Shown here in pieces: positions 20,379 through 24,450 of a stretch of 64,000 nucleotides of DNA. Positions within the stretch are counted from its first letter, which is position 1, and every line of letters begins with the position of its first letter. The notes under the pieces are model-generated. The model did not search any database, was not told the DNA's origin, and saw only the letters and a list, made by a program, of their open reading frames with translations. The position numbers were made by a program, and so were the translations under genes. The stretch covers positions 1 through 64,000 of the forward strand of contig JANSYR010000003.1 of NCBI GenBank assembly GCA_024742285.1, written 5' to 3'. Source of the stretch: a bacterium. GTDB lineage: Bacteria > Myxococcota_A > UBA9160 > UBA4427.

Positions 20379-20501
20379 GGAGAATCCTCTCGGATGGGGA
20401 CGGGAGAGCCTAGCGCCGGGGCCCACTTTCGTGCGTCGGGAGGCGAAGCGCGCTAACGAGACCGGGAGTTCTTCGGGCCGTACGCTTCGGGGAGGGAAGG
20501 C

Positions 20502-22073
20502 TTGGCCGCGCGCAGCTCCGCTTTCGTCAGCGATCGGGAGCGGGAGATCCTCGAAGCCGTCACGCGGATGGCGACGTCGAACCCGTTCGCACCGGATCGG
20601 ATCGACCAGGAGCGCCTCGCCCTCGGTGACGGCTTCACGGCCTACACCGCGGTGTGGCACATGGACGGCGACGTCGAGGGCTTGAACCCGAACGTTCTCC
20701 GCCTGAAGGAGCTCGCCGAAGGCATGGCCGAGGACCTCCGGTCCCGGCTGGTCGAAGGAGCGCGTCCGTCTCGTGAGGAGCTCGCTCTCTACGAGGGCTT
20801 CGTCCGCTACCTCCTCTTCTACCGCTACTCGCCCGACCTCACCCGGATCATCCACGATCGTGAGAAGGGCCGCCCCGCGACCCGGAAGCTCGGCTTCTAC
20901 GGGCGCTACGCGTCGGACTTCTCCCACTTCTTCGAGATCCCCGGCGTCGAGTTCCCGGAGGAGACCAACGCGCCCCACGTTCTCGCCTGGGGCTTTCAGA
21001 TCCGGCGCGCGTTCCACCACGTCTTCACGCAGATCTACGGTGGGTCGATGCCGATCGCGGAGCTGCGCGGCAAGGTCTGGCGCGCGGTCTTCACACACGA
21101 CGTCGAGCGCTACCGCCGCAGTCTCTACGGTCGGATGGGAGACATCCCGGCGCTCGTGCTCGGCGAGTCGGGGACCGGCAAGGAGCTCGTCGCCCGCGCG
21201 ATCGGCCTCTCCCGCTACATCCCGCTCGATCCGGAGCGTGCATGCTTCGTCGCCGACTTCGCGGACGGCTACCAGGCGGTCAACCTCGCCGCGCTGTCGT
21301 CCTCGTTGATCGAGTCCGAGGTCTTCGGCCACCGCAAGGGCGCCTTCACCGGGGCCGTCGAGGACCGCGCGGGTTGGCTCGAAGGGAGTGGTCCCTTCGG
21401 CACGATCTTCCTCGACGAGATCGGGGACCTCGATCCCGGGATCCAGGTCAAGCTCCTACGGGTGCTCCAGAGCCGCACGTTCCAGCGGATCGGCGAGACG
21501 ATCGAGCGTCGCTTCGAGGGCAAGATCGTCGCCGCGACCAACGCCGACCTCGAGCAGGGGATCGAAGACGGGACCTTCCGTGAGGACCTCTACTACCGCC
21601 TGTGTGCGAACGTGATCGAGATGCCGACCCTGCGCGCCCAGATCGAGGCGGACGACGGTGCCTTCGAGCAGCTGACCCAGGTGATCGCCGTCCGGATCGC
21701 GGGAAGTGAGGAAGAAGGCGATGGCCTCGCGAAGGAAGTGCTCGGCTTCGTCCGGAGTGGACTGCCCGCCGACTACGCCTGGCCGGGCAACGTCCGTGAG
21801 CTCGAGCAGTGCGTACGGAGCGTCCTCGTCCAGGGCTCCTACGCGCCACCGCGACGACGCGACGCGGGGGAGCGCCTCGCGGCGTCCGGCGTTGCGCCGA
21901 TGCTCCTGGCCGGCGAGGCCAGCGCGGAAGCGCTTCTACGCGACTACACCACCCGCGTCTACGCGAAGCAGGGCTCCTACGAAGCGGCGGCCCGGGTGCT
22001 CGGGCTCGATCGCCGGACCGTGAAGGCGAAGCTCGACCCGGAGCTCCTGGAGGAACTCCGGGCCGAGGGGTGA
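20502..22073 (+). CDS. Sigma-54-dependent transcriptional activator
   Basis: A 523-residue enhancer-binding protein. Residues 1-205 form a domain I do not recognise, without a receiver, PAS, GAF or V4R signature. The AAA+ domain has Walker A GESGTGKE (221-228), the intact sigma-54 contact loop GAFTGA (280-285), Walker B TIFLDEIG (301-308) and the arginine-finger region FREDLYYRL. The C-terminus is a Fis-type helix-turn-helix, [19 protein letters not shown]. The probable start is TTG at 20502, preceded by GGAGG at six bases; no ATG fits. It ends 19 bases from the convergent acyltransferase, whose upstream region carries a sigma-54 promoter and paired palindromes, making that gene a likely target. 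Confidence 0.9.
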
Positions 22074-22092: not shown

Positions 22093-23427
22093 CTAGTCGG
22101 CGTTCTTCTCCGTCCCGGAGAGACCCATCGTCGCGAGGATCTTGAGCGGGCCGATCCCCGCCAGCCCCGCGCCGTAGAAGGGCAGCAGATTCGGCAGGAT
22201 CCGGAGGCCGTCTCCGGACGCGACGCCCTGCGCGCTGATCATGGCGAGGCCGGCACAGACCAGGGTCGCTGCCGCGACCAGGCGTCGTCGCGAGTACGTG
22301 ACCAGGTCCGCGACCGGCTTCTCGAAGCGCTGTACCAGGAGCGCGAGCGGGAAGAGAAAGAGGGTGAAGGCCAGCAGGTAGAGCGGGCGAGACGTCCACC
22401 AGTCCGCCGAGTTCGGAAGCAGGTCGAGTCCCGTCCCTGCCAGGTAGAGCCCGGCGTAGACCGCGATCATCGCCGTCATGTGCCAGAGATAGACGGACAT
22501 GATCAGGCCATTCACGAGGACGGTCGTCGTCCAGACCTTCGCGTGATCCAGGACGCGCCGGGCGTAGGGCTCTGCGGCCAGAACGAGCCCGGACTGGGCG
22601 ATCCCGAGCGTCAGGAGGGCGAGGGTCGGCGGCGACGTATTCGAGACCTCCATGCCCGGGAAGCCGACCATGGCCAGGGGGTAGGGGCCGAAGGTGACGA
22701 GGAGCGCGGTCGCGAGCGCACCGCCGGCGAACCAGGCGAGTCTCTTCTCGAAGCGGCCCTCGCGCCACGCGTAGCCGAGCTGGTGGATCGCGAGCCAGAC
22801 GAAGAAGTAGTTGACGAGGCCGAGCGTGCGGTGGCCCGTGGAGAAGGAGACGACGTCGGTCAGCGTGGCGCCGGCGACGAGCGCCCAGAACGAGCGAAAG
22901 CCGTATCGGATCCAGGCGCGGTAGGTGATCGGCACGAGGACGCCGACCATCACGTAGACCGCGAGGAACCACGTCGGCACGAGCGCCGCCTGGGAGAGCA
23001 GGCCCATCAGTGCGGGATCCGCGCCGGCGAAGGGCGCGATCCCGGCGATCGCGACCCAGGCGAGCAGGACGGGAATCACCGGGGCGATCAAGCGCTGGAA
23101 GCGGCCGGCGAGCCAGCGCGGGTAGGGCGTGCCCCGCTCGACGGCGGCGGTCCAGGCGGTGTGGTTCGCGTAGCCGCCGACGAGGAAGAAGATCGGCATG
23201 ACCTGGACGGCGAGGGTGAGCCACCGGGTCCAGGGCGCGATCTCGAGCATGTTGCCGGCGACCAGGGCGCCCGCATCCGGGAGGTAGGGCGCCGCGACGA
23301 GCCAGTGGCCCAGGATCACGACGGTGATCGAGGCGGCGCGCAGGAAGTCGACGTAGCGGTTGCGGGTATCGGGGGTGGCGTGGGCCACGTGGGCGGCCTG
23401 GTGCCAGAGTTCGGTCGCGAAGGACAT
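22093..23427 (-). CDS. Acyltransferase 3 family membrane protein
   Basis: A 444-residue integral membrane protein of the OafA/NodX acyltransferase-3 type. The N-terminal RYVDFLRAASITVVILGHW holds the hallmark arginine and histidine of the first helix. The family's second signature follows in PIFFLVGGYANHTAW. About ten transmembrane helices follow, ending near GLAGIGPLKI. Such enzymes transfer acyl groups from the cytoplasm to a sugar, peptide or lipid outside the membrane. The start at 23427 has GGAGAG seven bases upstream. The region above it has a near-consensus sigma-54 promoter (about 23467-23483) and two matched 11-bp palindromes, so expression is probably controlled by an enhancer-binding protein. 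The substrate is unknown. Confidence 0.88.
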   Translation of the reverse strand: MSFATELWHQAAHVAHATPDTRNRYVDFLRAASITVVILGHWLVAAPYLPDAGALVAGNMLEIAPWTRWLTLAVQVMPIFFLVGGYANHTAWTAAVERGTPYPRWLAGRFQRLIAPVIPVLLAWVAIAGIAPFAGADPALMGLLSQAALVPTWFLAVYVMVGVLVPITYRAWIRYGFRSFWALVAGATLTDVVSFSTGHRTLGLVNYFFVWLAIHQLGYAWREGRFEKRLAWFAGGALATALLVTFGPYPLAMVGFPGMEVSNTSPPTLALLTLGIAQSGLVLAAEPYARRVLDHAKVWTTTVLVNGLIMSVYLWHMTAMIAVYAGLYLAGTGLDLLPNSADWWTSRPLYLLAFTLFLFPLALLVQRFEKPVADLVTYSRRRLVAAATLVCAGLAMISAQGVASGDGLRILPNLLPFYGAGLAGIGPLKILATMGLSGTEKNAD

Positions 23428-23466
23428 GGTCGGGCTCTCCGTTTCTCGTGGGACGAGAACAGGAAG

Positions 23467-23483
23467 AGCACGGTCCGTGCCAA
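23467..23483 (-). promoter_or_regulatory. Candidate sigma-54 promoter of the acyltransferase gene
   Basis: Read on the minus strand this is TTGGCACGGACCGTGCT. Against the -24/-12 consensus YTGGCACG-N4-TTGCW only the first T of the -12 element differs (GTGCT). The invariant GG (23481-23480) and GC (23469-23468) are separated by exactly ten bases. Transcription would start near 23456, giving a leader of about 29 bases that includes GGAGAG before the ATG at 23427. The element overlaps a 13-bp palindrome, GCACGGTCCGTGC (23468-23480). Confidence 0.65.
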
Positions 23484-23550
23484 GGTCAAAAAGTGAGCAA
23501 ATTCAGGGATTTATCGAGACGTCACATCAATGCGAACGCATTCCCAAAAT

Positions 23551-23582
23551 ACATCGGATGTCTGTCTCTAGACATCAGATGT
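23551..23582. promoter_or_regulatory. Paired palindromic upstream activating sequences
   Basis: ACATCGGATGT (23551-23561) and ACATCAGATGT (23572-23582) are two copies of the palindrome ACATCnGATGT, with centres 21 bp apart (two helical turns). They lie about 95-126 bases upstream of the predicted sigma-54 start site, the usual location for enhancer-binding-protein sites. A partial third copy, ACATCAATG, is at 23524-23532. The surrounding 160 bases are clearly less GC-rich than the neighbouring genes. Confidence 0.6.
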
Positions 23583-23587
23583 CCGGT

Positions 23588-24388
23588 CTATCGCCCCTCG
23601 AACGTCGGTGTTCGCTTCTCCCGGAACGCCTTGATCGCTTCCTGGGAGTCGTGGCTGCTGCCGGCGAGGGATTGGAGCTCGACCTCGCGGTCGTACGCCG
23701 GGCCGTAGTCGCTGTTGATCGCCGTGTGGAGGGATGCCTTGGCGTAGCGGAGCGAGAGCGGGGCGCGCTGGGCGAGCTCCTCCGCCCACGCCCGGGTCTC
23801 GGGCAGCAGCGCATCGCTCGGCACGACGCGATTGCAGAGCCCCCACTCCAGGCATTTCCCGGCGGCGACCTTCTCTCCGGTCGCGATGATCTCGTAGGCG
23901 CGCTTGCGGCCGAGGGCGTTCGCGAGGAGCCAGGTGGCGCCGCCGTCGGGGATCAGGCCGATCCCGGCGAAGGCCTGGTAGATGTAGGCGTCCTCGGCCA
24001 TGACGGTCAGGTCGCAGATCATGCCGTAGGCGCTGCCGACGCCGGCACAGGCGCCGTTGATCGCGCTGATCCACGGCTTCGGGGCGCGCAGGATCGCTTC
24101 GAGGACCGGGCGGTGGTCCTGCTGGAGGTGATCACTGACGCCCGTTCCCGTCGCGCCCATCGTGAGGTCGGCCCCCGCCGAGAAGGCGCGGCCCGCTCCG
24201 GTCAGGATCACGACGCGCACGGCAGGGTCGGCGTTCAACCGGTTCACCGCGTCCAGCATCTCGCGCAGAATCTCGACACCGAGCGCGTTGAGCTTCTTCG
24301 GCACGTTCATCGTCAGCTGACCGACGTGCGTGTCGGCGTCGACATCGACTTCGATCAGCTCGTAGGCGGGGTATTCGATCTTCGGCAT
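23588..24388 (-). CDS. Enoyl-CoA hydratase/isomerase
   Basis: A 266-residue crotonase-fold enzyme. The acyl-CoA oxyanion-hole motifs are SAGADLTMG and NGACAGVGSAYGM. GIGLIPDGGATWLL places an aspartate, rather than the usual Glu-Gly pair, at the second catalytic position, so the exact reaction (hydration, isomerisation or another crotonase chemistry) is uncertain. I chose the ATG at 24388, which gives a standard length and has GGAGAG upstream. It is on the same strand as the phosphotransferase, 62 bases downstream of it, and probably co-transcribed. The APH-fold phosphotransferase and CoA-ester enzymes are a common pairing in fatty acid or branched-lipid catabolism. Confidence 0.9.
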   Translation of the reverse strand: MPKIEYPAYELIEVDVDADTHVGQLTMNVPKKLNALGVEILREMLDAVNRLNADPAVRVVILTGAGRAFSAGADLTMGATGTGVSDHLQQDHRPVLEAILRAPKPWISAINGACAGVGSAYGMICDLTVMAEDAYIYQAFAGIGLIPDGGATWLLANALGRKRAYEIIATGEKVAAGKCLEWGLCNRVVPSDALLPETRAWAEELAQRAPLSLRYAKASLHTAINSDYGPAYDREVELQSLAGSSHDSQEAIKAFREKRTPTFEGR

Positions 24389-24450
24389 GAGCTCTCCGAC
24401 GAAGGGGCGATCGCGCGGAATCCGACGGCGGGGTCGAGGCGCGATCGCGA

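Follow-up and report, generated by a model that had tools for sequence, protein, structure and literature searches.

A tandem palindromic operator and a predicted sigma-54 promoter, probably under a neighbouring AAA+ activator, upstream of a bacterial membrane acyltransferase gene

Introduction

Which regulator acts on a membrane acyltransferase gene that lies tail to tail with a gene for a sigma-54 activator? The question is raised by the first 64,000 nucleotides of contig JANSYR010000003.1, from a bacterium of the Myxococcota_A. This whole stretch is referred to here as the window. Promoters that depend on sigma-54 need RpoN and carry GG-N10-GC in a YTGGCAC / TTGCW context, and transcription begins roughly 12 nt past the -12 GC. 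Their activators work as oligomers on phased sites, through DNA looping and ATP-driven remodelling by way of the GAFTGA motif.

Comparisons of the locus across genomes indicate that the gene very probably belongs to a promoter-operator-activator circuit, in which a tandem operator and a sigma-54 promoter are under the neighbouring activator. Binding of this activator to the boxes, looping, activation, the signal, and a role in membrane stress are what we infer beyond that. Circuits of this type are well known, whereas the family of this activator seems undescribed, as do its sensor domain and operator. No description of the operator or of the activator family was found in the open-licence PMC literature, and an earlier account elsewhere is possible.

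Results

The acyltransferase gene and its predicted promoter

The target gene and the element upstream of it are:
22093-23427, minus strand: integral-membrane acyltransferase, 444 amino acids (PF01757, E 1.1e-23), with its start ATG at 23427-23425
23467-23483, minus strand: predicted -24/-12 (sigma-54) element TTGGCACGGACCGTGCT, one mismatch to the consensus, kept in the orthologous loci of genomes G028, G054 and G074

The first-pass annotation had described an element one base off the -24/-12 consensus, with exact GG-N10-GC spacing, and this was borne out at 23483-23467 on the minus strand. The GG of TTGGCACGGACCGTGCT lies at 23481-23480 and the GC at 23469-23468, and the element is the sole match to the consensus YTGGCACRNNNNTTGCW with one mismatch within the 64-kb window. 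Matches with at most two mismatches are as frequent as chance predicts (4 found versus 5.4 expected), so the motif by itself is not significant. Furthermore, its -12 part reads GTGC and not TTGC, which counts against a promoter. The predicted start of transcription is position 23456, 29 nt upstream of the ATG, with a likely ribosome-binding site, GGAGAG, at about 23440-23435. A gene for RpoN is present in the genome (PF04552, E 6.6e-65).

The acyltransferase is rare: any match at all was found in four of the 30 genomes from the family and in 11 of the 80 from the order. Its orthologs are found in the same genus (G028, 83% identity), in another family (G054, 56%) and in a third family (G074, 57% over a fragment). 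The entire locus is kept in G028. In G054 and G074, a different gene, not the enoyl-CoA hydratase of the window, lies upstream of the acyltransferase. All four orthologous promoters, including that of the window's genome (G000), have TGGCAC-N6-TGCT in common. More distant homologs (43-50% identity), in G030, G071, G031, G038 and G029, have no sigma-54 promoter directly upstream. In G029, an upstream membrane-protein reading frame extends into the acyltransferase homolog, which has no sigma-54 element (L009 4230-4260).

Within the promoter lies a 13-bp inverted repeat, GCACGG-A-CCGTGC, which the first-pass annotation did not contain. This repeat is perfect in both the window and G028, as would suit a repressor site that resembles a -24/-12 element by accident. 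Comparison with the other orthologs makes such a reading extremely improbable. G054 loses the symmetry (GCACCCATCCTGC) yet keeps TGGCAC-N6-TGCT and its position, and in G074 just the outer parts of the repeat persist. Moreover, many non-symmetric -24/-12 elements are found downstream of box pairs beside activators of the same family.

A pair of boxes on one face of the helix

Upstream of the predicted promoter lie two palindromic boxes, followed by the next gene:
23551-23561, no strand assigned: box 2 (proximal), ACATCGGATGT, centre 23556, at -100; supported by the foreign-site matrix (see below) and by conservation
23572-23582, no strand assigned: box 1 (distal), ACATCAGATGT, centre 23577, at -121; supported by the same matrix and by conservation
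23551-23582, minus strand: possible hairpin over the box pair, 5 nt past the hydratase stop (z -2.0)
23588-24391, minus strand: enoyl-CoA hydratase (PF00378, from Pfam), an upstream neighbour outside the circuit

The box centres, 23556 and 23577, are 21 bp apart upstream of the predicted start at 23456, which places both boxes on the same helical face, two turns from each other. Two copies of ACATCnGATGT with this centre spacing had been claimed upstream of the predicted start, and they are indeed there, at -100 and -121. A random scatter of the palindrome through the genome had been named as grounds for refutation. Instead, the whole genome of 6,547,748 bp holds two copies of ACATCNGATGT, both at the acyltransferase promoter. 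The relaxed pair CATNNNATG-N12-CATNNNATG has a single occurrence in each of G000, G028 and G054, in every case upstream of the acyltransferase, and its reversed control pattern gave 0 matches in searches of these three genomes. Single near-matches to a box elsewhere in G000, on contigs C11 and C17, have no -24/-12 element nearby.

Pairs of the CAT-N3-ATG type, exactly 21 bp apart, are found at all four orthologous loci, at -99 to -130 (centres at -100/-121 in G028, -109/-130 in G054 and -99/-120 in G074). The distal box of G074, CACGAGATG, is one letter off (CAC-N3-ATG). A sigma-54 promoter with a phased pair, read earlier as the layout of an enhancer-binding-protein target, is thus kept in orthologs with a different upstream gene.

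The position of the pair also allows for another explanation, in which the boxes are no operator and form the arms of a terminator hairpin that ends the hydratase gene. Just 5 nt separate the hydratase stop codon from the pair, which can fold on the minus strand into a 12-bp stem with ATTTT behind it. Like the inverted repeat, this fold was absent from the first-pass annotation. G028 has a long, perfect stem (-30.8 kcal/mol, z -6.8), and changes in its two arms preserve the pairing. This T-run, however, is absent in G028, and a hydratase ortholog in G023 (91% identity) is followed by neither boxes nor a hairpin after its stop. The pair also stands in G054 and G074, where this hydratase does not lie upstream, and the G054 hairpin is unremarkable (z -1.1). 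Of an intrinsic terminator one expects a GC-rich hairpin with a T-run, conserved together with the upstream gene; the hairpin was found in G000 and G028 only. Finally, a matrix derived from unrelated loci selects precisely the boxes of the window. A terminator in place of an operator is therefore very unlikely, while the pair may double as a hydratase terminator within the genus of the window (window 23551-23590; G028 at L008 5853-5890).

The activator and its family

The proposed regulator has the following parts:
20502-22073, plus strand: proposed cognate activator, 523 amino acids, with an AAA+ sigma-54 interaction domain (PF00158, E 6.6e-46)
about residues 1-212 of the activator: N-terminal domain, predicted to be all-helical, with no match in Pfam or the PDB
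21339-21356, plus strand: GAFTGA motif within the AAA+ domain
about 21972-22037, plus strand: C-terminal Fis-like helix-turn-helix (HTH) of 22 residues, judged by eye, in a segment conserved in the family

The first pass had noted a convergent activator with GAFTGA, 19 bases from the acyltransferase, and the distance is correct: 19 bp separate the end of the activator gene (20502-22073) from the acyltransferase stop at 22093. The arrangement is convergent in G054 too, and in G074 the activator is on the same contig as the acyltransferase. In the family alignment, Walker A (GESGTGKE) and GAFTGA mark the AAA+ domain of an enhancer-binding protein. A Pfam search of the activator gave no significant match for an HTH.

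The N-terminal domain had no significant match in a Pfam search with 61 aligned members. Its AlphaFold model is all-helical with a mean pLDDT of 87.5, and a fold search against the PDB returned nothing significant (best E 0.56, TM 0.24). The top-ranked fold matches, FadR and COQ9 (TM about 0.24), were discarded as noise.

The family was searched for with the alignment of the N-terminal domain, which kept out other AAA+ activators. This search of contigs confirmed 95 relatives, and the best 80 of the 95 loci were analysed. These 80 come from records named Deltaproteobacteria/Myxococcota, Planctomycetota, Methylomirabilota/NC10, Acidobacteria, Lentisphaerae/Kiritimatiellota, and others. Within the phylum of the window, 48 of 379 genomes carry the family.

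The operator recurs beside the activator family

The four acyltransferase promoters served to define motif and spacing, and only then were other loci tested. At 14 other strict -24/-12 promoters adjoining family activators, the two-box score peaks at spacing 21, with 8.79 out of 12, compared with a mean of 6.82 (sd 0.20, maximum 7.43) in shuffles. In a test that excluded the discovery loci, at least ten of 12 positions matched at spacing 21 in 28 of 72 activator-upstream regions and in none of 72 coding controls taken inside the activator gene, the loci being related and not independent. Over half of the 72 family loci fall below this threshold.

The resulting family consensus is TGTACATnnnATGTACA, with the core CAT-N3-ATG, and the flanking GT/TAC columns, outside the scored core, are also conserved. 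The pair usually lies within 200 bp of the start of the family activator itself, at many loci approximately 130-147 bp ahead of the transcription start that a -24/-12 element predicts. No such pair stands upstream of the activator in the window (20460-20501), in which it differs from many relatives. Upstream of activators, spacing 11 comes a close second (8.72 versus 8.79 for spacing 21; 22 loci), which we attribute to arrays with a box at every helical turn. A Phycisphaeraceae genome (L126 7874-8000) has three TGTACAT-type boxes spaced by about 11 bp upstream of a -24/-12 element.

A matrix was built solely from the activator-upstream sites of other genomes. With this foreign-site matrix, the pair in the window scores 30.9 bits, and the next best site in the 64 kb scores 1.6. 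The acyltransferase sites of G054, G074 and G028 reach 32.5, 27.5 and 21.5 bits, respectively. Among 80 genomes from the order, six of the 24 that have the activator contain the exact pair, versus two of the 56 that lack it (Fisher p 0.008), a count that takes in G010 and G038, activator-bearing genomes with the pair located elsewhere. In these two, the pair is away from the activator and has no promoter. Four of the nine places with an exact pair in these 80 genomes adjoin the activator or its partner gene.

The window's genome has about 20 further matches to AAA+ activators. With operator and promoter both genuine, one of these could bind the boxes and leave the neighbour a bystander. We give this little credence, since the operator co-occurs with the subfamily of the window's activator across phyla, usually less than 200 bp from its start, and within that subfamily the HTH segment shows strong conservation. 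The adjacent activator had been proposed with due caution as the cognate regulator, and the proposal gains support from the same operator accompanying the family in distant phyla. It is also consistent with G029, where the acyltransferase homolog (50% identity) is found in a genome without an activator of the window's type, and the promoter layout is absent as well.

Discussion

Proposed mechanism and known relatives

The neighbouring activator as regulator of the acyltransferase gene would imply the following sequence of events, of which oligomer binding, looping and remodelling are taken from established knowledge of sigma-54 activators. RNA polymerase with RpoN would be held at the -24/-12 element of the acyltransferase gene. 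The activator, as an oligomer, would bind both palindromic boxes approximately 100-121 bp upstream and loop to the promoter, where its AAA+ motor with GAFTGA would drive the formation of the open complex. The sensor would likely be the unannotated helical domain at the N-terminus.

The enterobacterial PspF uses paired upstream sites and, to our knowledge, has no N-terminal regulatory domain. The window's activator has a new N-terminal domain of about 210 residues and a different operator. Similarities to PspF and the psp operon are the AAA+ superfamily, a putative Fis-type HTH and the predicted sigma-54 promoter, and PspA/IM30 adjoins several family members. In contrast to psp, most targets of the family are lipid acyltransferases or VIT/vWA proteins. 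Against the PspF equivalog TIGR02974, the activator scores 152 bits, far from the cut-off of 443.55. PspF itself has been described as an AAA+ activator carrying a Fis-type HTH, next to a sigma-54 promoter (PMC11237479).

With NtrC, NifA, ZraR, NorR and RtcR, the activator has in common the AAA+ core (PF00158, GAFTGA), a putative C-terminal HTH, the predicted remote tandem sites and the -24/-12 promoter. It differs from them in that all NCBIfam equivalogs score far under their cut-offs (for RtcR, 182 bits against 650) and in that its N-terminal domain is unmatched. Having no N-terminal Pfam domain and an all-helical model, it does not show the receiver domain of the NtrC type.

These results assign an operator, a promoter and a candidate regulon to a sigma-54 activator family with an unannotated sensor, in lineages known mainly from metagenomes. 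The operator matrix would allow anyone to map the regulon.

A possible membrane theme among the targets

Sigma-54 has been linked to the "control of the bacterial exterior" by Francke et al. 2011 (PMC3162934), and the candidate targets of the family agree with this general picture of sigma-54 acting on envelope and lipid genes. Acyltransferases or palindromic operators were sought in that article, and no mention of them was found. Because of the gene content at family loci (PspA, VIT/vWA proteins, acyltransferases), membrane maintenance or repair is the likeliest theme of the regulon, and we consider it somewhat more probable than an even chance. If this is true, the family would represent a Psp-like envelope response with a different sensor.

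A more far-reaching proposal, which we put forward tentatively and with more doubt than conviction, is that of an undescribed family of membrane-damage regulators. Their N-terminal domain would sense the state of lipids or membranes, and through pairs of TGTACATnnnATGTACA 21 bp apart they would govern genes for lysophospholipid re-acylation together with PspA-like and VIT/vWA genes. This would amount to an alternative phage-shock-type response across several phyla rich in uncultured members.

In the window's genome, neither the PspA gene nor the VIT/vWA genes showed an operator pair, so that this genome gives no support for a wider regulon. Its PspA gene (G000:C9:189428-191155) comes after the gene of another AAA+ sigma-54 activator and lacks such a pair.

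At family loci elsewhere, PspA/IM30 lies beside activators or promoters of the family at L071, L091, L100 and L123 (checked with Pfam for L071 and L100), and VIT/vWA genes are divergent from the activator at about 16 loci (checked for L075 and L094). PlsC acyltransferases are neighbours or targets at L068, L073 and L074. Other neighbouring targets include a fatty-acid hydroxylase (L076), PF01757 acyltransferases, and LplT-Aas-type fusions of MFS, PlsC and AMP-binding domains (checked with Pfam for L096 and L135). Genes for such fusions are divergent from the activator at L096, L102, L106, L118, L124, L125 and L135, which suggests that lysophospholipid salvage is a recurrent target.

In G054 (L067), the activator lies between a divergent VIT/vWA gene and the convergent acyltransferase gene. 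Each of these has its own promoter and operator pair, scoring 21.0 bits for VIT/vWA and 32.5 for the acyltransferase:
L067 3120-3240: target region in G054, with promoter and pair
L067 6242-6350: target region in G054, with promoter and pair

At L080, a VIT/vWA gene, an acyltransferase gene and a PspA-like gene lie close together on one strand.
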